A model generated the notes under the pieces. It searched no databases, was not told the DNA's origin, and saw only the letters and a list, made by a program, of their open reading frames with translations. A stretch of 64,000 nucleotides of DNA from Caldilinea sp. CFX5 (GTDB lineage Bacteria; Chloroflexota; Anaerolineae; Caldilineales; Caldilineaceae): assembly GCA_021405325.1 (NCBI GenBank), contig QWII01000051.1, forward strand, positions 3,201 through 67,200. The letters are read 5' to 3'. Of this stretch, positions 4,633 through 59,478 are shown piece by piece; within the stretch, counting starts at the first letter, position 1, and every line of letters starts with the position of its first letter. A program made the translations under genes and the position numbers.

Positions 4633-5829
4633 TTACAGGAGCATTTCATATTGGTCGTCGAGCAACTTGCGGTAGTAATCTGCTTGATCGTGAATTTGAC
4701 ACACAATTTGATCAACTTCATGAATACAAGCAGTGAATTGTTCAACAAGGCGCTCAGTGGTAAAATGCTCAATGTGCTGGCAATAGCGCCCAAGGCCCAT
4801 TTCCTTCATTAGCAGATCATTCTTCTCATGATAGCCAAGCGAAATTACGGGCCGCCCCAGCATTAGCGAACATAGCACGTTATGGAAGCGACTTGCTACA
4901 ATAATATCTGTCTGGGCAATTTGATAAAAAAGGTCATTGACATTCGTGATTTCTTGGACGATAAGCTTTTCCTGCCAATGGGGTTCACCCTCTTCTTTTA
5001 CAAATTCAGTGATTTCCCGGACCGGTCGCATATCTGCTATATCCCCCGAAATGACCCGGACGGTGAATCCTGCGCGGAGCAACCAGGTGACAAAATGTTT
5101 TATTTTTGAAAAATATTTCTGATAGACACTCTCACCAGTAACAGCCAGCCAGCCATAGTAATTGATCAACCCTAATCCCACCACGGTTGGCGTAGCGGAG
5201 AGTTTTTTAGGGACTGGCAATGATGCCTTCGGTAGACTAAAAACAAGATCTGGGTATAAGGTGTCACGAGATGTATCGTAACCAAGACTCTGCAGATAAT
5301 TGAAGGCGGCCATTTCGCGATACGAACGGTAATCTGCCATTCGCAAGGCTTTGAGCATCAAGAATTTGCTAATGCGGTTCAAAATCGGGCCAACGCCAAC
5401 ACTCAGAAAAATAACTTGCGCTCCGCCCAGCTTGGCAGCCTTGCACCATTTGTAGAGCGTATAGGGCGCATGCCAAGGCCGGCGGACGCCCATATCATCA
5501 ACGGCGCCTGTCCCCACCACGATAAATTTATCCCCTGGCTGAAACCATTTTGGACTCTGCAACCAGAAGAGAATCTCATCCGTCAGACGTAAACAGAGTC
5601 GTATAATGCGCGATGGCTGACTACCGAAACCAGGTTTATCTGTATATGCCCCGCTTGTGGGCAGTGTCTGGATGCCAAAACGCTTTGAAACTTCGCCGGA
5701 GCCGGTGCAAACACAGATTATATTTGCATTCGGTTGATATTTTTTAATGTGATAAAGCGCTGCTTCGAGCGAAGCATCATTCCCAGTATTGCCCGATCCA
5801 AAATTTCCATAAAGAATAATTTTATCCAT
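4633..5829 (-). CDS. Polysaccharide pyruvyl transferase family protein
   Basis: 398 aa. The N-terminal glycine-rich GNFGSGNTGND (8-18) is typical of the family (CsaB, WcaK, AmsJ types). The C-terminal half has the DIIVASRFHNVLCSLMLGRPVISLGYHEKN pattern, whose RFH is the usual catalytic region. These enzymes add a pyruvate ketal from PEP to a sugar of a surface polymer, giving it negative charge. The start follows AGGTGAT. A palindromic element (5884-5962) sits between it and the upstream glycosyltransferase. Confidence 0.85.
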   Translation of the reverse strand: MDKIILYGNFGSGNTGNDASLEAALYHIKKYQPNANIICVCTGSGEVSKRFGIQTLPTSGAYTDKPGFGSQPSRIIRLCLRLTDEILFWLQSPKWFQPGDKFIVVGTGAVDDMGVRRPWHAPYTLYKWCKAAKLGGAQVIFLSVGVGPILNRISKFLMLKALRMADYRSYREMAAFNYLQSLGYDTSRDTLYPDLVFSLPKASLPVPKKLSATPTVVGLGLINYYGWLAVTGESVYQKYFSKIKHFVTWLLRAGFTVRVISGDIADMRPVREITEFVKEEGEPHWQEKLIVQEITNVNDLFYQIAQTDIIVASRFHNVLCSLMLGRPVISLGYHEKNDLLMKEMGLGRYCQHIEHFTTERLVEQFTACIHEVDQIVCQIHDQADYYRKLLDDQYEMLL

Positions 5830-5883
5830 ATCATCACCTATCTATAGTACTTGTACAATTCTTGCACCAGTTGTACAAGTAAC

Positions 5884-5962
5884 GTAACTATTCAGGCCGC
5901 TCCTCGCCAGTCACGGACTGGCGAGGAGCGGCCTGAATGGAGCAGGCGGGCTGAATAGTTAC
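5884..5962. repeat. GTAAC-end palindromic element, copy A, with 8-bp target duplication
   Basis: Terminal 12-nt inverted repeats GTAACTATTCAG (5884-5895) and CTGAATAGTTAC (5951-5962) enclose a perfect 23-bp hairpin (5890-5912 with 5916-5938, loop ACG). The element is flanked by the exact 8-bp direct repeat CAAGTAAC (5876-5883 and 5963-5970), the mark of an insertion. Related copies lie at 32674, 39161 and 42644, with a decayed one near 56367. Confidence 0.85.
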
Positions 5963-6050
5963 CAAGTAACAAAAATAGCGGGTATAGCAATTTCCCATAA
6001 CCGGAAACGTAAGCTATTTGCCTACAAGTTTGCGGGCCAAGCTGACTTTG

Positions 6051-7001
6051 TTATTTAGGGTGGCTTGACGGTTGATATTTTGTAAAATGTTCTTTCTGCT
6101 TCTTTTTTTCAACAGCGTGCCACCAAGTGCGAAAAAATACTCCGCGCCAAAAAACGGGTAACACCGAGTATAAACCAGCTAGGCGCAACAACGAGATGAC
6201 GCGGGCGCTTGCGACAACGATATGACCATCAAGAAAGTTCAAAACAGCCGAAAATAGATAAGCTCTACATGTGTGCCCGCGTAAAAACACATCACCCTGA
6301 ACAGAATGCTGAATTCTGGCTAAGGCGCCTTGCGAATTGAAAACTTTATCCCGTATTCTGCGATAGTCTTGAGCCAAATTAGAATAATCAAAGGAACTCT
6401 TAGACCCTCCCGAAAGTCGCACTATTGCTACGCTTTGACTAATTCCATCAAAATTACCTAACAACGCCATCTGACAACATAGATCAAGATCGCCCCATAC
6501 TAAAATCCGAGGATCCATCCCTCCTGCTTTGAGATAAGCATCTCTTCTGATCAACGAAGCTGCAAAGTGAAGATTCTCTCCCCCCACAAATAAGGCCAAG
6601 AGATTTCCTCTGGCTTCTGATGGAACAACGGATATAAAATTACCATCGTCGTCTACTAAATTGTAGGCCCCATAGATCCAATTACACCCCGTGAGCATAG
6701 CTTTGTCCAAGAGTGCTTTTAATGCATTGGGCAACAAATAATCATCATCATCGAGGAAATTAATATAAGTTCCCGATGCCAAATTGGCCCCTTTGTTCAT
6801 TGCATCGATCAAATTAGAGTAGGAATTTATAACCGTCACTTTAGACGACTTCAGCCAATCCACATCCGGCAGCGGTTGGCGGCTATTGTTATAAATAAGA
6901 ATTTCATGAAGATGATCATCAAGGTTTTGTTCCAAAGCGCTCTTGACTGCACGTTCCAGACTTGGCCGATTAATTGTCGGGATAATCGTCGTACAAAGCA
7001 T
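6051..7001 (-). CDS. Glycosyltransferase family 2
   Basis: 316 aa from the ATG at 7001, which has GGAAAGGAG 8 nt upstream; the reading frame is open further 5' but that extension is not GT-like. GT-A fold features are an N-terminal IIPTINRPSLERAVKSAL nucleotide-binding strand and helix, then the metal-binding run NFLDDDDYLLP (four Asp). The acceptor region contains WGDLDLCCQM. It transfers a sugar from an NDP-sugar during repeat-unit assembly at the cytoplasmic face. The C-terminus is rich in Lys, Trp and Phe. Confidence 0.85.
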   Translation of the reverse strand: MLCTTIIPTINRPSLERAVKSALEQNLDDHLHEILIYNNSRQPLPDVDWLKSSKVTVINSYSNLIDAMNKGANLASGTYINFLDDDDYLLPNALKALLDKAMLTGCNWIYGAYNLVDDDGNFISVVPSEARGNLLALFVGGENLHFAASLIRRDAYLKAGGMDPRILVWGDLDLCCQMALLGNFDGISQSVAIVRLSGGSKSSFDYSNLAQDYRRIRDKVFNSQGALARIQHSVQGDVFLRGHTCRAYLFSAVLNFLDGHIVVASARVISLLRLAGLYSVLPVFWRGVFFRTWWHAVEKKKQKEHFTKYQPSSHPK

Positions 7002-11710: not shown

Positions 11711-11801
11711 GGCTCATGTACGGAAAGCGTGAATACCTGTCAGGTTTCGCAAACCTGACAGGTGTGGCTGGTTGAGACCTCACACTTTCTGTACATGAGC
11801 C
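11711..11801. repeat. GGCTCAT-end palindromic element, copy E1, with 9-bp target duplication
   Basis: A 91-bp element with ends GGCTCATGTAC and GTACATGAGCC and an inner hairpin ACCTGTCAGGTTT / AAACCTGACAGGT. It is flanked by the 9-bp direct repeat ATTTTAGAA (11702-11710 and 11802-11810). A near-identical copy in reverse orientation is at 26807-26897 and a third, shorter one at 42723-42809. Confidence 0.88.
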
Positions 11802-11871
11802 ATTTTAGAAAACCGTAGAGGCGTCCCCTTGCGGGCGCCCGCAAGGGGACGCCTCTACGGTTTTCTAAAAT
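11802..11871. repeat. Perfect 70-bp palindrome
   Basis: Two exact 35-nt arms meet without a loop at 11836/11837. The arm includes ACCGTAGAGGCGTCCCC. The outermost 9 nt of the left arm are one copy of the direct repeat made by element E1, so E1 inserted at the edge of this older palindrome. Its core GTAGAGGC is shared with the palindrome at 48852-48905. It lies between the O-antigen ligase-like gene and the upstream GT4 gene and might act as a terminator hairpin in either direction. Confidence 0.85.
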
Positions 11872-26806: not shown

Positions 26807-26897
26807 GGCTCATGTACAGAAAGTGTGAGGTCTCAACCAGCCACACCTGTCAGGGTTCGCAAACCTGACAGGTATTCACGCTTTCCGTACATGAGCC
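26807..26897. repeat. GGCTCAT-end palindromic element, copy E2, with 8-bp target duplication
   Basis: 91 bp, ends GGCTCATGTAC and GTACATGAGCC. It is almost the exact reverse complement of copy E1 (11711-11801). Flanked by the direct repeat TAAAGCTT (26799-26806 and 26898-26905). It lies against the stop codon of the deacetylase. Confidence 0.88.
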
Positions 26898-32253: not shown

Positions 32254-32640
32254 TCAAATGAGACCAGGATAGGAATAGTGGCCGTTGCGCTTGCCTTGGA
32301 CAAAGGCGGTTAAGCGGCCAATGGTTTCAAAGTTTTCGGGTAAGAAATCGTCATCAGCAATCAGGACTTGGAATTCCTCTTCCACAAAGCCCACCAGATC
32401 CATAATGCCGAGCGAATCGATGATCCCACTCTGGAAGAGCGACTGATCATCGGCCAGCGCCTTGTTGTGCGCCAAGGGAAAATTGGTTGCGATAAAGCGG
32501 CGTAGACGATCGTTAACACCGTCGTTAACACCGTCGTTAACACCGTCGTTAACACCGTCGTTAACACCGTCGTTGACACCGTCGTTGACACCGTCTGGAT
32601 CTGCCACGTGGGTCAGCGCTGTAGGATTGGCTGTGGTCAC
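32254..32640 (-). CDS. Acyl carrier protein with an N-terminal VNDG tandem repeat
   Basis: 128 aa from GTG 32640 with GAGGGGT 8 nt upstream. The C-terminal 80 residues are an acyl carrier domain: LFQSGIIDSLGIMDLVGFVEEEF, with the phosphopantetheine serine Ser76 in DSLG. In front lies (VNDG)6VND, encoded by seven 12-bp repeats at 32512-32595. A plain carrier protein is about 80 aa, so the repeat is an added flexible acidic linker. It works with the ligase downstream. Confidence 0.88.
   Translation of the reverse strand: MTTANPTALTHVADPDGVNDGVNDGVNDGVNDGVNDGVNDGVNDRLRRFIATNFPLAHNKALADDQSLFQSGIIDSLGIMDLVGFVEEEFQVLIADDDFLPENFETIGRLTAFVQGKRNGHYSYPGLI
32512..32595. repeat. 12-bp minisatellite (seven units) inside the carrier protein gene
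   Basis: Seven head-to-tail 12-mers: five GTTAACACCGTC and two GTTGACACCGTC. The period is a multiple of three, so copy-number change keeps the frame and only lengthens or shortens the VNDG linker. Confidence 0.95.
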
Positions 32641-32673
32641 CTGGATTACCCCTCATCGTTCCTATAAGAATTG

Positions 32674-32749
32674 GTAACGAATAAGCCCGCTCCTCGCCCC
32701 GTGACTGGCAGGTTGACGTCAGTCACGGGGCGAGGAGTTTAGTCGTTAC
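32674..32749. repeat. GTAAC-end palindromic element, copy B, with 8-bp target duplication
   Basis: Ends GTAACGA (32674-32680) and TCGTTAC (32743-32749). An inner 17-nt arm CTCCTCGCCCCGTGACT (32690-32706) pairs with 32721-32737. Flanked by the exact direct repeat AAGAATTG (32666-32673 and 32750-32757). A small independent hairpin, CTCATCGCCGGTC / GACCGGCGATGAG, follows at 32776-32804. Confidence 0.87.
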
Positions 32750-32818
32750 AAGAATTGTATATAATTGCTTGACCGCTCATCGCCGGTCCATGACCGGCGA
32801 TGAGTAACGGCGTTTGCC

Positions 32819-36724: not shown

Positions 36725-36839
36725 CAGGACTTACGCAAGACGAATTACTGCCGGAGCGCCGCCATCCCTGGCGGCAAGCAGGGCCGCCAGGGATGGCGGC
36801 GCTAACCCTCTGGGTGCCCGGCGTCTTGCGTAAGTCCTG
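36725..36839. repeat. Two-stem palindromic element with CAGGACTTACGCAAGACG ends
   Basis: Exact 18-nt terminal inverted repeats (36725-36742 and 36822-36839) enclose a second perfect 20-bp stem (36756-36775 with 36783-36802). A 5-bp direct repeat TATTT flanks it (36720-36724 and 36840-36844), weak evidence for insertion. The rest of the 346-base gap between the antiterminator gene and the sialidase-like start shows nothing else. Confidence 0.8.
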
Positions 36840-37354: not shown

Positions 37355-37381
37355 GATGACTCCTTTCCCTGGTTTGTCACA

Positions 37382-37444
37382 CCCGCGCCAAGCCGGTCCG
37401 TGACCGGCGTTCCCGTCGCCGGTCACGGACCGGCTTGGTGCGGG
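37382..37444. repeat. 63-bp palindrome spanning the end of the O-antigen ligase gene
   Basis: Arms around GCCAAGCCGGTCCGTGACC and its complement, separated by about 7 nt. The TGA stop of the upstream ligase (37423-37425) lies inside one arm, so the element encodes that protein's last residues. It also forms the leader of the elongation-factor gene. Confidence 0.8.
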
Positions 37445-39081
37445 CGTTCCCGTTGGTCAAACGCCTGGCGGAGCCATTGCCCCGCTTGTTGGTCATTCAG
37501 GTATTCATACCACCACAAGCGGTCTTTGACCTGGGCGTACTGTAGATCCACCGACCGCCAGAGCGTTGCCGCCTGCTCGACATTGCCGGTGACAGCATAA
37601 GCTTCCCCCAGCAACCGTCGGATCGAATCACGCGCCGGCGCCGCTTCATACGCTTGGGTGAGTTGGGCCAGCGCACCGTGATAATTGCCGCGCGAGAGTT
37701 CAAGCTGCCCCAACCGTTCATGTACCGTGGCGCTAGCCGGATTGAGCGCCAGAACCGCCTGATAGTAAGCCGCTGCTGTGGTCAGATCAACGGCTCCTTG
37801 CCGCCGCAACTCATCCTGGATCGGCCAGGCGGGCCAATGGTATCGGCTCAATTCAGCCCTGGTTTGGGCCAGGACGCCCAGATTGGTATAGCCGCGCTCC
37901 TTCAGATCCGGTCTGCTACAAAGCAACAGGAGGGCCAGCACAGGGAGTAGACCGGCCACAGCGCTTCTGCCGACAACCAGCGGTGCGCCAGGGTGAGGCA
38001 CGACCGCCATTGGCTCCTGCTGCTGTTGATTGAGCCGCGCCCAGTAGAGCGTCAGCACAAAGCCCAGTGGTAGAAAGAGTACGGCAACGGTGGCGGTGGC
38101 ATATAATTCGGCATCGAGCAGACCATAGCTCAGAACGGCAAGTTGCGCCGCCAGCGCTGCCAACCAAAACCAGCGCTCATGGCTCCGGCTCTTTGGGTAG
38201 CTCGTAATGCTAAGCGCCAACAACAGCCCATGCATGAGCAAAAAAGCGAGCAGACCAGGTCGCCCCTGTTCGAGCGCAATCTGCAAGTACAAGTTATGGG
38301 CGTGATACCAATAGGGATCGTGCACCGACAACACATAGGTTGAATAGATCATCGGCGTCATCCCTAGCCCGCTTCCTGTAAAGTAATAGTCATGACTAAG
38401 GGCAAGACTCTCACGCCAGAGCGCCAGCCGTTCGAGCAACTCCCTGCCCACGGCTGTACGATTGAACAGCACATCCCAATCCGGTCGCAACAACAGCAAC
38501 AGATAAACGCTGATGGCGCTGATCACGCCGAGCGCAAGGAGGCTGTCACTCAGCCGATAAAGGGCGGCATAGGCGCCGGTGGACGGCTGGTTGCGCCCAT
38601 AAAGATAGCCGGCGCCCACCAACCCTACCGTTAATCCAAACAAGGCCGTGCGTTCAAAGGTCGCCAGCAAAAGCAGGAGCGCCATGAGCAACGCAACGAC
38701 GCCCGCCCAAACCAACAACGGTTGTCGGCATTGCCACTGCCACCAGACGCCGACCGCAGCCAACGGCAGCAAAACCATCAAGCCGCTGGCAACGGCGCCG
38801 CTGTTCTCATTGAAGCGCAGTCCGTAGGCCACACTGAGCGCCGCCACCCAACACGCACAGCCCAATCCGGCCAAACCGAGGATCGTCTTCGCATGGTAAC
38901 GGCCAAGCCAAGCAAGCCCCATCATCAACCCTAAACCGATCTGAAGGGGCGCAAAGCGCAGTAACGCCGCCTCCCGATTATAGGCTGCCCACAGACCAAT
39001 CAGCAGCGTCAGGTTAAACAAGAGCGCCGATGTCGTCACCAGGACCGTCATGGGCGTGAGCAGTTGTAAAGAACGTTTCAT
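37423..39081 (-). CDS. O-antigen ligase/polymerase-like protein with C-terminal TPR domain
   Basis: 552 aa from ATG 39081. About eleven membrane helices come first. A large outer loop has RELLERLALWRESLALSHDYYFTGSGLGMTPMIYSTY and YWYHAHNLYLQIALEQGRPGLLAF, with the conserved His of the family. After the last helix come about 150 soluble residues with two or three TPR-like repeats (AAAYYQAVLALNPASATVHERLGQLELSRGNYHGALAQLTQAYEAAP). This TPR tail is common in PglL/ligase forms of Chloroflexota-like genomes and may bind the acceptor or partner proteins. Confidence 0.85.
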   Translation of the reverse strand: MKRSLQLLTPMTVLVTTSALLFNLTLLIGLWAAYNREAALLRFAPLQIGLGLMMGLAWLGRYHAKTILGLAGLGCACWVAALSVAYGLRFNENSGAVASGLMVLLPLAAVGVWWQWQCRQPLLVWAGVVALLMALLLLLATFERTALFGLTVGLVGAGYLYGRNQPSTGAYAALYRLSDSLLALGVISAISVYLLLLLRPDWDVLFNRTAVGRELLERLALWRESLALSHDYYFTGSGLGMTPMIYSTYVLSVHDPYWYHAHNLYLQIALEQGRPGLLAFLLMHGLLLALSITSYPKSRSHERWFWLAALAAQLAVLSYGLLDAELYATATVAVLFLPLGFVLTLYWARLNQQQQEPMAVVPHPGAPLVVGRSAVAGLLPVLALLLLCSRPDLKERGYTNLGVLAQTRAELSRYHWPAWPIQDELRRQGAVDLTTAAAYYQAVLALNPASATVHERLGQLELSRGNYHGALAQLTQAYEAAPARDSIRRLLGEAYAVTGNVEQAATLWRSVDLQYAQVKDRLWWYEYLNDQQAGQWLRQAFDQRERPHQAGP

Positions 39082-39160
39082 GTTTGTTCGACCCGCCGCT
39101 GACAACCGAAGACACGCACCACGCCATCATCGCGTCTGATGAAGGTTAGAAAAATAAATC

Positions 39161-39268
39161 GTAACTACTCACCCCTCCCTAACCCTCCCCTGAGAAGGGA
39201 GGGAACTGTGGTACGCTCGACTGTTCCTCCCCTTCTCAGGGGAGGGTTAGGAGGGGGTGAGTAGTTAC
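39161..39268. repeat. GTAAC-end palindromic element, copy D, with 8-bp target duplication
   Basis: 108 bp with 38-nt arms (39161-39198 and 39231-39268) starting GTAACTACTCACCCC and ending GGTGAGTAGTTAC; the match is near-perfect. The exact direct repeat AATAAATC flanks it (39153-39160 and 39269-39276). The interior is CCT/AGG-rich and is echoed, in reverse orientation, by the decayed copy at 56367-56447. Confidence 0.88.
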
Positions 39269-39295
39269 AATAAATCGATATTGCAATAGGGACCC

Positions 39296-41023
39296 TTAGC
39301 TGCGCGCAAATTGTAACATCTGCCAGCCCACATTGAAGGCGCTCTTCGCCCCTTCCCAGCTATTCAGCCCCTTGAGAAAAGTCCAGATCGGCCCTGGGCG
39401 CAACGACCACTCTCTGGTGGCCCTTTTTTGCCAATATTCCAATTGTTCCGCCGTTAGATTCGCATAGTCCAAAACGGTCGATTGATCCATATCCACCTCT
39501 TCCCACTTGGTGCCGGGGCGGAACCAGTTGTTCTCCACCACCTCATAGAAGAAGGGCGTGCCGGGGTAGGGGGCAGCAATGTGGAACAGGGCAATATCCA
39601 GCGGCAACTGCTTGGCATAGGCCATGGTCGCGCGGATCGACTCCTCTGTTTCGCCGGGTAACCCGATGATAAAATAGCCCCAATTTTTGATGCCGGCGGC
39701 CTTGGCCCAGCGCAACGCCTTAAAGGCTTGCTCCTTTTTGTACCCCTTGCGGGCGCGTTGGAGGATCTGTTCATTGGCGCTCTCAATGCCCCAGGAGATC
39801 AGCCAGCAACCGGCCTGGCCCATCAACGCCAACAGCGCTTCATCGACATAATCGACGCGGCTGTTACAGGTCCAGCGAATGCGGATATCGCGCCGCAAGA
39901 GTTCCTCACAAAGGCTGACCACATGCTCCCGATTGACTGTAAAGAGGTCGGCGTACATATGGATGTTGTCAATGCCCAACTTGTTGAGATAGGCAATCTC
40001 GTCGCACATGTTCTCGGCGGAGCGCACCCGCACGCTGTTCTGGTAACTGACATGTTTGATGCAATACTTGCAGCCGGCCGGACAACCGCGACTGGTGACG
40101 ATAAAGGTGAAGGCGCCCTTCATCATCGGCATCCGTTGTTTATCCAGGGGCAGCAACTCATGTTTGGGTAGCGGCAGATCATTCAGATCAGGAATGAAAG
40201 GCCGGTCAGGGTTGATAACAATCTCGCCGTTGGGATGACGCCACGCCAGCCCGAGAATGGTCGCATAGGGGGACGCTGTCGCTGTCACCGGGAATTTATC
40301 TTGCACTGTTGCCGTGCCGACCCGTCTTGTCTGCGGTTGACTCGTCTCGGCCAACATCTTGCGCACTTGCGGGTTGCTGGGCGTCTTGTTTTCCAGGCGG
40401 TCGAGTAATTCGCGTAGCGTCATCTCCGGCTCGCCACGCAGGATAAAATCGAGGGCCGGGAAGGGGCGCATGGTCTCCAGCGTCATCGGGGTGACATGGG
40501 TGCCAAAGGCCATTGTCCTAGCGCCCAGCGCTTTGGCCAGGAAAACACCATACATATCATTCTTCAACGTCGGCGCCGTCACCTGGGTCAGGTAATATTG
40601 GGGGCGCTTTTCTTCCAACAACTTTTCAAACGCCGGCCAGCCCATGCGTAAGGCGTTGGCGTCAATGATTTCAACCGAATATTCCGGCAGCAAAATCGCC
40701 GCCAGTTGGGCCAGACTGACCTGCGGCCAGATCATATTTTCCCGACTGCGCCGCCCGACGCGGTGTTGACTGCGAATCCAGATCGCGCCATCGGGCGTCG
40801 GCGGGTTGACCAGCAAGACATCGACCGTGCCGGCGGGGCGGCTGGACGAGGTCAGCGTCTGGACGCTGGCGCCGGCATCGGGGAAATGGGATGGCCGCAC
40901 GGGTGGGATGCGTCGCGTCCCTAGGTTGTCACGAAAATCGGCGGTCAACTCGATGTTGATCGACTTGGTGGGCTGTTGGCTTTCCGTCCCCGTCGTCATG
41001 GTTTTGTCCTCAATACGCGTCAT
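39296..41023 (-). CDS. B12-binding domain radical SAM protein
   Basis: 575 aa. An N-terminal cobalamin-binding-type region begins VDVLLVNPPTPDGAIWIRSQ and includes LAAILLPEYSVEIIDANAL. The radical SAM cluster motif is CPAGCKYCIKH (CxxxCxxC), followed by INKLGIDNIHMYADLF-like and WGIESANEQILQRARKGY segments of the Elp3/MiaB-like barrel. Such enzymes methylate or rearrange unreactive carbons; here a glycan or lipid intermediate is the likely substrate, by context only. It lies between the membrane GT2 and the ligase. Confidence 0.88.
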   Translation of the reverse strand: MTRIEDKTMTTGTESQQPTKSINIELTADFRDNLGTRRIPPVRPSHFPDAGASVQTLTSSSRPAGTVDVLLVNPPTPDGAIWIRSQHRVGRRSRENMIWPQVSLAQLAAILLPEYSVEIIDANALRMGWPAFEKLLEEKRPQYYLTQVTAPTLKNDMYGVFLAKALGARTMAFGTHVTPMTLETMRPFPALDFILRGEPEMTLRELLDRLENKTPSNPQVRKMLAETSQPQTRRVGTATVQDKFPVTATASPYATILGLAWRHPNGEIVINPDRPFIPDLNDLPLPKHELLPLDKQRMPMMKGAFTFIVTSRGCPAGCKYCIKHVSYQNSVRVRSAENMCDEIAYLNKLGIDNIHMYADLFTVNREHVVSLCEELLRRDIRIRWTCNSRVDYVDEALLALMGQAGCWLISWGIESANEQILQRARKGYKKEQAFKALRWAKAAGIKNWGYFIIGLPGETEESIRATMAYAKQLPLDIALFHIAAPYPGTPFFYEVVENNWFRPGTKWEEVDMDQSTVLDYANLTAEQLEYWQKRATREWSLRPGPIWTFLKGLNSWEGAKSAFNVGWQMLQFARS

Positions 41024-42643: not shown

Positions 42644-42700
42644 GTAACTACTAAGCTCCTAACCAGTCACGGACTAGCTAGGGGTAGGCTTAGTCGTTGC
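42644..42700. repeat. GTAAC-end palindromic element, copy C (older)
   Basis: 57 bp, ends GTAACTACTAAG and CTTAGTCGTTGC (two mismatches), core CCAGTCACGGACT as in copy A. Flanking 8-mers CATTAATG (42636-42643) and CATCAATT (42701-42708) match at six of eight positions, as expected for an older insertion. Confidence 0.7.
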
Positions 42701-42722: not shown

Positions 42723-42809
42723 GGCTCATCTACGGAATGAACACCTGTCAGGTTTCCAAAACCTGACAGGTGTGGCGGGTCGAAACCTCACACTTTCTGT
42801 AGATGAGCG
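42723..42809. repeat. GGCTCAT-end palindromic element, copy E3, with 8-bp flanking repeat
   Basis: 87 bp, ends GGCTCATCTAC and GTAGATGAGCG, inner hairpin ACCTGTCAGGTTT / AAACCTGACAGGT as in E1 and E2. Flanked by TTTATTTT on both sides (42715-42722 and 42810-42817); this flank is low in complexity, so less telling than in E1 and E2. Confidence 0.8.
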
Positions 42810-48851: not shown

Positions 48852-48905
48852 CCCCAACCACCGCGTAGAGGCACGATATATCGTGCCTCTACGCGGTGGT
48901 TGGGG
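48852..48905. repeat. Perfect 54-bp palindrome
   Basis: Two exact 27-nt arms meet at 48878/48879; the arm includes CCACCGCGTAGAGGCACG. It lies between the terminator of the P1 peptidase and the stop of katG and could end katG transcripts. The GTAGAGGC core is shared with the 70-bp palindrome at 11802. Confidence 0.9.
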
Positions 48906-54275: not shown

Positions 54276-55313
54276 ATGGGGCGGAATCTGTTGAGCGGGG
54301 TGTTGGGGATTGGCGTCGGGTTGGTGTTGGGGGCGGTGATCATGCTGTTGCAGGGGTATGATCCGCTGGCAACCTATGGTGCGCTTTTTAGTTTTTCGCT
54401 CTTCGGGCTGTATCCGTTGGCGACGACGTTGAATAAGGCCGTGCCGTTGATCTTGACGGGGTTGTCGGCGTCGGTGGCCTTTGCATCAGGGCCGGTGAAC
54501 CTGGGCCAGCCGGGGCAGTTGGTGATGGGCGCCCTCTTTGCCACGATGGTGGGGCTGGCGGTCGATCTGCCGGCGGTGGTGATGATCCCGCTCTTGTTAC
54601 TGGCGGCGTTGGTGGGCGGGGCGCTCTGGGCAGGGCTGGCGGCGCTGTTGCGGCTCTGGTTCAACATGAGCGAGTTTATTACCACGCTCATGCTCAATAT
54701 GATTGCCGATTTCTTGACGCTCTGGGCCATCACCCAGCCGCTGGCCGACTCCGCCGCCTTTTCGCCGATGACGCCGGCCATTAGCGCCAGTGGTTGGCTG
54801 CCGGAAGTTGGCCCCTTTAGCAGCAGTGTCATCATCATGCTGCTGGCCTTTGGCGCCATCTGGTTTGTCTACAACCACTGGACCGCCGGCTACGAGTGGC
54901 GCATGACCGGCCAGAATGCGCTCTTTGCCCGTCTGGGCGGCTGCGCCATCAATCGCAACTATCTGACGGTCATGTTGGTGACGGGGGCTTTGGCTGGTCT
55001 GGCCGGTGGCCTGGTCATGATGGCCGGGCCGCATCGCTTTTTGCGCGGCCTGGGCGCCAACTATGCCTGGGATGGCGTTATGATCGCCGTCGTCGCCAAC
55101 AATGGGCTGACCGGCACGCTGCTCTACGGCTTCTTTTTCGCCGCCCTGCAAAGCGGCGCCCTGGGCATGGAACTGATCACCGCCGTCCCCAGCGAATTTA
55201 TCCAAGTTTTACAAGCCGTCATCGTCCTCGTCGGCGTCGCCGCCCGCGTCTATCTGGAAGTCGTCCGCGACCGCTGGCAGACCCGACGGCAGGCGGAATA
55301 CATGACAAGGTGA
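54276..55313 (+). CDS. ABC importer permease 1 (YufP/NupP type)
   Basis: 345 aa from ATG 54276; the open frame before it is a shadow of the ATPase gene. Eight to ten helices, with [28 protein letters not shown] and [19 protein letters not shown] typical of the BPD_transp_2 family, and the coupling-helix region [27 protein letters not shown]. The last residues MTR and the stop TGA (55311-55313) are encoded by the first repeat units that follow. Confidence 0.9.
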
Positions 55314-55456
55314 CAGGGTGACAAGGTGACAAGGTGACAGGGTGACAGGGGTATATTGTCGGCGCTGTTAACTAACCAGGCGCAAACAGTAAAGTCTGAA
55401 CGCTACAAGTACGTGACCCTGTCACCCTGTCACCCTGTCACCCTGTCACCTTGTCA
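55303..55456. repeat. Inverted-arm repeat of 8-bp words (locus M)
   Basis: Left arm: six TGACARGG units (55303-55350). Right arm: four CCCTGTCA and one CCTTGTCA (55417-55456). The arms are exact complements of each other over most of their length, with a 66-base centre. The left arm runs through the stop codon of permease 1 and the right arm ends just before the ribosome site of permease 2. Confidence 0.85.
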
Positions 55457-57982: not shown

Positions 57983-58663
57983 ATGCGAATTTTACTGATT
58001 GAAGATGATGAAGCGATTACGCGTGTGCTCCAACGCGGGTTACGCGCCCACGGTCACCAGGTAGTGGTGGCCGAGAGCGGGGAGGATGGCGTCCTGCTGG
58101 CGGAAGATGACACGGTGGAACTGGTGCTGCTCGACATTGCCCTGCCCGGTCTGAATGGGCATCAGGTGTTGGCGCGCGTGCGGCGCCGTCGTCCGCGCCT
58201 GCCGATTCTCATGCTCACCGCGCGTGATGATCTGCAAAACAAGGTGAACGCCCTGCGGAATGGCGCCGATGATTATATTACCAAACCCTTTGCCTTTGAA
58301 GAATTGCTGGCGCGCATTCAAGCCGTCATGCGCCGTTTTGACCAGCCGGAAGGATCACAGATCCTGGCCGGCCCTTTGCGGTTGGATCTCCTGGCCCAAC
58401 GGCTCTGGCGCGACGGTCAGCTTGTCGAACTCTCGACGCGTGAATTTGCCTTGCTGCAATACTTTATGCGCCATCCACGCCAGGTGCTCTCCCGGCGGCA
58501 AATTTTGGAAGCGGTCTGGGAATATGAGTTTGAACCGGAATCGAATGTCGTTGATGTCTATGTACGTTCGTTGCGCAACAAGATCGACAAAGCGGAAAGC
58601 CCTTCTCTCATCACCACGATCCGTGGCGCCGGTTATCGTTTTGATCCACCGCCGGCCGCCTAA
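57983..58663 (+). CDS. OmpR/PhoB-family response regulator
   Basis: 226 aa. Receiver domain: acidic EDDE (7-10), phosphoacceptor Asp51 in LLLDIALPG, Thr in LTARDD and Lys in YITKPFAFEELLARI. A winged-helix DNA-binding domain follows (LSTREFALLQYFMRHPRQVLSRRQILEAVWEYEFEPESNVVDVYVRSLRNKID). It is probably phosphorylated by the divergent kinase. The ABC importer next to the kinase is a plausible target but that is only proximity. Confidence 0.95.
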   Translation: MRILLIEDDEAITRVLQRGLRAHGHQVVVAESGEDGVLLAEDDTVELVLLDIALPGLNGHQVLARVRRRRPRLPILMLTARDDLQNKVNALRNGADDYITKPFAFEELLARIQAVMRRFDQPEGSQILAGPLRLDLLAQRLWRDGQLVELSTREFALLQYFMRHPRQVLSRRQILEAVWEYEFEPESNVVDVYVRSLRNKIDKAESPSLITTIRGAGYRFDPPPAA

Positions 58664-58680
58664 ACCAGCTCGCGAAAACC

Positions 58681-59478
58681 ATGCACGACTTTACACCTAT
58701 TACCGAAACCCCCGGCAGCGGCCTGAATCCTGAACAACTGGCGCGCATCCGGCAACGTTATCGCTTCGGCGCCGCCTTGGCCCAAGGGAAGGATGTGTTG
58801 GAGGTGGCCTGCGGCGCCGGCAGCGGGCTGGGCATCTTGCGACAACAAGCCCGTTGCCTGGTCGGCTGTGACTACACCGGGTCGGTGCTGCGCATGGCTC
58901 AGTCCCACTATGGTCAGCAGGCGCCGCTGGTCTGTGCCGACGCCCAGCAGTTGCCCTTTGCCGATCGCTGCTTTGACCTGCTGCTCTCCTTTGAAGCGAT
59001 CTACTATCTGCCCCAGATCGACTGGTTTCTCAGCGAGGCCCACCGGCTGCTGCGACCGGACGGGGTATTGCTCCTCGGCACCAGCAACCCTGATTGGCCC
59101 CCCTTTGTCCCCGGTCAGATGAGCGTCCACTATCCCACCCTGCCCGAACTGGCCGCCGGCCTCGCCGCCGCCGGTTTTGTCCAGCCGCAATTTTATGGCG
59201 CCTTCCCGCTGCCGACGACAACCCGCCCCCACAAAGCGCTGCTGGCGACCTTGCGCAAAGTTGCCCTGCACTTCCAACCCTTCACCGCCGATTCCGCCTT
59301 GACCCGGCGCCTAAAGCAACTTGTCTATGGCTCTCTGCACCCCTTGCCGGCCGAGCTAACCCTGACCGCCTTGCCCAATGACGATGTCCGCACCGATCTG
59401 ACCCCCCTGCCGGCCACCGCCGCCGACCGGCGCCATCGTGTCTTGTTTGCCGTGGCCCACAAAGCCACGGTTGGGTAG
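58681..59478 (+). CDS. Class I SAM-dependent methyltransferase
   Basis: 265 aa. Motif I VLEVACGAGSGLGIL, motif II LVGCDYTGSVLRMAQ, motif III LPFADRCFDLLLSFEAIYYL, then HRLLRPDGVLLLGTSNPDW: Methyltransf_11 type (UbiE/ArsM-like). The substrate is unknown. It follows the response regulator by 17 nt and may be cotranscribed. Its stop TAG (59476-59478) abuts the first hairpin repeat. Confidence 0.88.
   Translation: MHDFTPITETPGSGLNPEQLARIRQRYRFGAALAQGKDVLEVACGAGSGLGILRQQARCLVGCDYTGSVLRMAQSHYGQQAPLVCADAQQLPFADRCFDLLLSFEAIYYLPQIDWFLSEAHRLLRPDGVLLLGTSNPDWPPFVPGQMSVHYPTLPELAAGLAAAGFVQPQFYGAFPLPTTTRPHKALLATLRKVALHFQPFTADSALTRRLKQLVYGSLHPLPAELTLTALPNDDVRTDLTPLPATAADRRHRVLFAVAHKATVG

Follow-up and report, generated by a model that had tools for sequence, protein, structure and literature searches.

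The analyzed window is a stretch of DNA of 64,000 nt, which contains four short elements with inverted tips, all of them located between long open reading frames (Table 1). Genes in the neighborhood of the elements represent the glycosyltransferase, polysaccharide pyruvyl transferase, ABC-2, and O-antigen ligase families. With 57–108 bp and no gene, the elements are short and have no coding capacity. Elements 1–3 start with GTAAC and end with GTTAC, and each lies between exact 8-bp direct repeats. Their coordinates, lengths, and repeats are exactly as given in the original prediction, which had also correctly described the fourth copy with its imperfect flanks (six of the eight bases are equal). 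The right end of this decayed element 4 is mutated to GTTGC. In element 1, the inner arms (5890–5912 and 5916–5938) are complementary at 23 of 23 positions and extend into the left tip, of which they take in the final 8 nt.

Table 1 Positions of the four elements and their target duplications in the 64,000-nt window.
Feature	Positions	Strand	Description
Left target duplication CAAGTAAC, element 1	5876–5883	none	Exact copy at 5963–5970
Element 1, 79 bp	5884–5962	none	Tips GTAACTATTCAGGC / GTAACTATTCAGCC; palindromic core
Right target duplication CAAGTAAC, element 1	5963–5970	none	Exact copy of 5876–5883
Left target duplication AAGAATTG, element 2	32666–32673	none	Exact copy at 32750–32757
Element 2, 76 bp	32674–32749	none	Tips GTAACGAATAAGCC / GTAACGACTAAACT; core has CTCCTCGCC and AGTCACGG, common to element 1
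Right target duplication AAGAATTG, element 2	32750–32757	none	Exact copy of 32666–32673
Left target duplication AATAAATC, element 3	39153–39160	none	Exact copy at 39269–39276
Element 3, 108 bp	39161–39268	none	Tip GTAACTACTCACCC on both sides; unrelated core CCCTCCCTAACCCTCCCCTGAGAAGGGAGGG
Right target duplication AATAAATC, element 3	39269–39276	none	Exact copy of 39153–39160
Element 4, 57 bp, decayed	42644–42700	none	Tips GTAACTACTAAGCT / GCAACGACTAAGCC; flanks CATTAATG / CATCAATT

The cores had been predicted to differ from copy to copy. This was correct for element 3, whose core is the only one in the window unrelated to the other three, but not fully so for elements 1, 2, and 4, which all contain AGTCACGG (elements 1 and 2 also have CTCCTCGCC in common). 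As three of the four copies share core motifs, the window itself holds only one clear core replacement.

The motif GTAAC occurs 57 times in the window, and 15 GTAAC...GTTAC pairs are 30–400 bp apart. Exact 8-bp flanks were present for three of these 15 pairs, with five mismatches at the next best. When 8-mers of the window were paired at random, 5 of 200,000 draws gave two equal sequences, so that approximately 0.0004 exact cases would be expected compared to the three observed. A tolerant scan (at least 9 of 12 tip positions, at most two flank mismatches) retrieved the four elements and one unconvincing pair at 58396–58734, and nothing in the reversed sequence. Looser scans at two settings yielded 5 and 8 pairs versus 2 and 5 in the reversed sequence and thus added nothing reliable. 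An Rfam search of the window gave no match at the gathering score, and a plasmid search with positions 5600–6300 gave none either.

Several other repeats were noted in the window. By eye, another MITE-like family is represented at 11711–11801, 26807–26897, and 42723–42809, with the ends GGCTCATGTACGGAAAG and its inverse, the core ACCTGTCAGGTTT...AAACCTGACAGGT, and the flanks ATTTTAGAA (9 bp), TAAAGCTT (8 bp), and TTTATTTT (8 bp, with the last base of the element changed). Its third copy lies 22 bp from element 4, and its first copy adjoins a perfect 70-bp palindrome without a spacer (11802–11871). Strong palindromes without GTAAC tips are located at 32776–32805, 36755–36803, 37379–37447, and 48852–48905; the first of these lies 26 bp from the right duplication of the element 2 region and resembles the core of element 2 (CCGCTCATCGCC versus CCGCTCCTCGCC). 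The open reading frame 32254–32640, which adjoins element 2, contains a 12-bp tandem repeat (TCGTTAACACCG, 32498–32607), and positions 55303–55456 hold two tandem arrays in inverted orientation, which consist of GTGACAGG-like units and are separated by 66 bp.

The tip family in related genomes

The protein encoded at 39296–41023, next to element 3, has counterparts with 61–81% identity in 16 relatives, which are labeled as Chloroflexi, Caldilineaceae, Anaerolineae, or similar groups. In these 16 relatives, one place matched the two-tip pattern GTAACTAN{50,80}TAGTTAC, and a one-tip pattern was more useful. We searched 298 genomes, drawn from the class of genome G015, with the tip pattern GTAACTAYTCAGSC and used the reversed pattern as control. 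The tip was present in 98 of the 298 genomes, whereas the reversed pattern matched at most once per genome. By our own count, 30 genomes contained at least ten matches. The largest number, 629, was obtained for G227 (3.4 Mb; loci L116–L151 and L236–L255), in which almost all elements seen were of one 112-bp kind. In G015, many tips are located about 125 nt from contig ends, which we read as collapsed copies of a multi-copy insertion sequence.

The window and the fetched loci provided 123 tip pairs with a distance of at most 3 kb, of which 77 were left after removal of duplicates. An exact flanking repeat of exactly 8 bp was found at 38 of the 77 pairs, one pair had a 4-bp repeat, and none had a repeat longer than 8 bp. 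Over 8 bp, the numbers of pairs with zero, one, two, and at least four mismatches were 38, 7, 3, and 29, respectively. Flanks taken from different elements agreed exactly in 7 of 20,000 draws. Hence, the duplication is 8 bp long and the elements are insertions, which supports the predicted MITE-like family with many copies flanked by 8-bp repeats in other genomes.

Empty sites in related strains had been proposed as a check, and for two elements of relatives, unoccupied sites occur in the form of paralogous repeats. One element of G015 (L017, duplication AAATCCGT) resides inside a dispersed repeat, whose copies in L066 and L059 are continuous through the site without the element. Likewise, the G285 element at L154:8281 lies within another repeat, of which L301 and L152 contain unoccupied copies. 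The locus of a further G285 element (L293:16016) is unoccupied in G305, where both sides match, and in G307, where one side matches, with intergenic DNA that is not closely alignable. For element 3, no such element was present in the 230 bases following the orthologues of the 39296–41023 gene in any of the 12 relatives (of the 16) whose sequences were printed, and these relatives are too distant for a comparison of the empty site at the level of single bases.

A search for a full-length insertion sequence with the same ends had also been suggested. Full-length elements with ends of this kind exist in relatives, where they belong to the IS66 family. Complete elements with similar tips are 1.4–1.6 kb long, and three of them have exact 8-bp repeats: two copies in G215 (1539 bp, tips GTAACTACTAAGCC, duplications CCGGAAGG and AGAGCGTG) and a G130 copy of 1432 bp, which has the tips GTAACTGCTCAC and the duplication TAACTGCC. 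The G267 element (L095, 1582 bp) has the tip GTAACTATTCAGCC on both sides, which agrees with the right tip of window element 1 at all 14 nt, and its protein matches PF03050 (DDE_Tnp_IS66) at 3e-42. One base of 14 differs between the left tip of element 4 and the tips of the complete copies in G215. The transposases of L209 (G215), L214 (G130), and L095 scored above the cut-off of the NCBIfam IS66 model NF033517. Terminal inverted repeats of the GTAA type are shared with the complete IS66 copies in the relatives G215, G130, G267, and G052. The flanks of an IS66 copy in G072 have one mismatch, the copies in G052 and G267 have good tips and no duplication, and a copy in G141 adjoins masked bases. 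The search for IS66 ends covered 30 loci (L206–L235), and most of the other loci in this set had no such ends.

PF03050 was present in 14 of the 30 tip-bearing genomes searched. In the other 16, including G227 with its 629 tips, no IS66 transposase was found, and such a gene may be missed by draft assemblies. Among the genomes of the 16 relatives, PF03050 was detected in G006 and G014 only; it was not found in G010, G011, and G015. A tip pair of 1326 bp in G227 (L147:15242) was considered as a parent element and rejected, as its open reading frames did not look transposase-like by eye.

Cores under one tip, other tips, and no tips

The folding of cores was assessed for 66 elements from the window and 17 genomes that had both tips and at most one flank mismatch; 21 of them came from G227. 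Compared to 60 simple (mononucleotide) shuffles per core, 55 of the 66 cores folded with a z-score ≤ −4, while 11 did not (five of these at z ≥ −1). Palindromes are thus usual but not required. For clustering, one core that was too short was left out and three were added (G250 L260, G250 L194, and window element 4, the latter two without clean duplications). The resulting 68 cores behind 14-nt tips formed 21 clusters (BLAST, 1e-4), with elements 1, 2, and 4 counted apart despite their common motifs. A single core common to all copies was not observed overall, but only inside single-genome sets such as G227. The tips are constant at 12 of 12 positions while the cores have nothing in common. Two unrelated cores with exact duplications under one tip type were found in the window (elements 1 and 3), in G011 (L038 and L047), and in G250 (L187 and L260). 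The predicted replaceability of the core is therefore supported, as cores differ under constant tips, with the qualification that elements 1, 2, and 4 have core motifs in common.

Cores also occur outside this context. In stretches of G011 (100 kb) and G285 (166 kb) that were chosen for their tips, some core copies have no tips or only one. The core TCATTTCGA...GAGAAATC was detected in 49 of the 298 genomes, while the reversed control matched at most once. According to our own count, which misses tip variants, 15 genomes had at least ten matches to this core and no match to the exact tip, with 389 core matches in G216. By eye, tipless CATTGCGAG cores in G011 (L160:12728 and L163:3119) lie between direct repeats of 13–16 nt that are located a few bases out, which may point to another way of insertion.

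The core CATTGCGAGC...GAAGCAATC matched 22 plasmid records (E-value limit 1), mostly from Alphaproteobacteria, Cyanobacteria, and other Proteobacteria, and at least 40 places in one of these records. Within 50 kb of the latter, the two Novosphingobium copies had no such tips. The core of element 3 matched nine plasmid records from Cyanobacteria, Azospirillum, Pelobacter, and Photobacterium. In eight of the nine, the match began at query base 11 or 12, and the two printed copies had no GTAAC tip. For the cores TCATTTCGA, CATCCTGAGC, that of element 1, and that of G227, no plasmid match was obtained, as was also the case for an invented 30-mer. The statement that cores occur across phyla thus rests on two of the six cores tried.

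A second tip, AGGRVYTACGCRGT, was found in all seven genomes searched (G305, 45 matches versus 2 for the reversed pattern; G285, 21 versus 4). The family with this tip is present in G285, G305, G240, and G210 (loci L322–L371) with several kinds of core. Among 34 second-tip cores (two of which overlap), 21 matched cores of the IS66-type tips at 1e-3, compared to none of 34 for shuffled cores and none of 34 for random G285 stretches. Of the 21 matching cores, 19 were of the TCATTTCGA kind, one resembled a G136 core (CATCCTGAG), and one resembled the core of G250 L194 (GGTTTGCAACC). An exact 9-bp repeat flanked one of 35 second-tip pairs, and seven of 35 had at most two mismatches over 9 bp; the target duplication of this family is probably about 9 bp long.

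In 566 kb of G285, selected for tips or core matches so that proportions are not genome-wide, we found 25 paired TCATTTCGA cores and seven half cores. IS66-type tips on both sides were present at 18 of the paired cores, the second tip on both sides at two, one tip of each type at two, and one recognized tip at three. At most one flank mismatch was seen for 12 of the 18 IS66-tipped cores when each end was allowed a 1-base shift. The two mixed-tip chimeras had no matching flanks of at least 8 bp, and they consequently demonstrate that cores recombine, but not that an exchanged element is mobile.

Origin of the elements and comparison with known systems

The tips, the 8-bp duplications, and the complete IS66 elements with similar tips indicate that the elements are very probably non-autonomous members of the IS66 family (MITEs), whose tips would be recognized in trans. 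As conservation hardly extends beyond the tips, the interior appears to be free. At the sequence level, this reading is also supported by the unoccupied paralogous sites, by different cores under one tip, by the occurrence of one core under both types of tip, and by the mixed-tip chimeras. In related bacteria, the ends of the apparently mobile window elements surround many different hairpin sequences, which suggests that ends of this type are able to pick up and spread otherwise unrelated DNA palindromes. An IS66 transposase, which presumably moves the small elements in trans, would recognize the tips, which are about 14 nt long (GTAACTRYTCAGSC or variants), and would insert any DNA enclosed by a pair of them, with duplication of 8 bp of the target. 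The interior would usually be a palindrome, often one that belongs to a pool of dispersed repeats also found in tipless form. The palindrome may be the site at which cores and tips are exchanged, by recombination or by fold-back (template-switch) copying. One-sided chimeras, as seen twice, would arise if copies with the same core recombine or undergo strand switching, while fold-back copying of one arm would make both ends alike and turn one new arm into a symmetric element. Element 1 fits fold-back copying, since 8 nt of its left tip are mirrored ahead of a second, complete right tip. Against the assignment to IS66-derived MITEs count the 29 of 77 tip pairs with at least four flank mismatches, the 11 of 66 cores without strong folding, the 16 of 30 tip-bearing genomes in which no IS66 transposase was found, and the G267 and G052 copies without duplication.

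The main alternative is that the cores are mobile elements in their own right, which inserted into small IS66-tipped elements or beside tips and were then carried along. In its favor, cores are dispersed without tips, one of them in 49 of 298 genomes, and the direct repeats seen by eye around the two tipless G011 copies agree with it. We nevertheless regard such nesting as doubtful, because in the printed G285 and G011 elements only a few bases separate the core from the tip, and neither a remnant of an interior nor a second duplication was seen between the two. That the cores are diverged remnants of an IS66 interior, none of them acquired, is clearly unlikely. Internal deletion is the usual origin proposed for bacterial MITEs (in the accessible part of PMC10969869), and families confined to one genome, such as that of G227 with one core in 21 of the 66 elements, look like simple amplification. 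However, deletion does not account for constant tips around cores that have nothing in common, for cores matched by tipless repeats of other genomes and of plasmids from other phyla, or for the same core under another tip type.

The remaining explanations have far lower probabilities. HUH transposases are not expected to generate 8-bp target duplications, and these elements have exact ones instead of lacking them. In addition, the complete elements with similar tips carry IS66 transposases. We thus rejected, as highly improbable, the view that the elements are REP- or REPIN-type palindromes spread by a RAYT or another HUH transposase with GTAAC as the tag, although they are short intergenic palindromes with a conserved terminal tag and GTAG-tagged repeats have been reported from Chloroflexi among other phyla (PMC3733652, as excerpted). 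A coincidence, with palindromes happening to fall between short repeats, has a negligible probability: GTAAC is frequent in the window, but the exact cases far exceed the expectation given above, the architecture recurs in 17 other genomes, and the 38 tip pairs with an exact 8-bp repeat led us to discard this explanation.

The elements have each defining feature of an IS66-derived MITE that was tested except a common core. They share 8-bp target duplications, as described for the IS66 members ISPpa5a and ISPpa7 (PMC3281130, available part), and GTAA-type ends with IS66 insertion sequences, for which the ends GTAAGCGTCCGG... and GTAACCGTCCGGGCA have been published (PMC12888890), but differ from them in their small size and lack of a gene. 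The complete copies in relatives have one IS66 open reading frame, compared to three in classic IS66 according to the accessible text of PMC12888890. The same text describes tIS66, an IS66 type with passenger genes whose ends are able to carry foreign cargo. Foreign cargo between IS66 ends is a likeness to our elements; unlike here, the transposase is inside tIS66, and the cargo here is a palindrome. Bacterial MITEs, among them Nezha, RUP, and NEMIS listed in PMC3733652, are described in the available parts of PMC10969869 and PMC3733652 as short and non-coding, with terminal inverted repeats and target duplications, and as mobilized in trans. The window elements resemble them in all these respects, with mobilization in trans being the presumed one here. 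A MITE family normally has one core, although this is not strictly required, whereas only about 14 nt of tip are common to our elements across genomes. The accessible portion of the MITE review PMC10969869 does not mention IS66. In the literature on IS66, MITEs, Chloroflexi, and the core sequences, with few subscription journals covered, we recognized no description of such elements.

Implications for the spread of bacterial palindromes

Bacterial genomes commonly contain palindromic repeats between genes, many of which have no known means of spread. REPIN and Rickettsia palindromic elements are dispersed palindromes and mostly intergenic; to our knowledge, neither these nor REP sequences have 8-bp duplications or IS66 tips. 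The tipless cores found here may belong to this broad kind, and our elements are likewise dispersed, mostly intergenic palindromes, as stated for REP-type repeats in the excerpted text of PMC3733652. In the genomes studied here, the same palindrome can have IS66-type tips and duplications, have other tips, or be tipless in other genomes, which makes the question of how such palindromes spread testable. We tentatively consider it possible that dispersed bacterial palindromes form a common pool, on which the IS66 tips and one or more further tip families serve as exchangeable caps. Such caps would be gained by strand switching or fold-back copying and would spread palindromes of no known mobility within genomes, and perhaps between phyla. 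If the IS66 reading is true, complete IS66 elements with tips like GTAACTAYTCAGSC or GTAACTACTAAGC are expected in the genome of the window organism. The elements would then form a transposable family that is defined by hardly anything beyond its 14-nt tips, and such a family would be missed by repeat surveys that group elements by their interiors.
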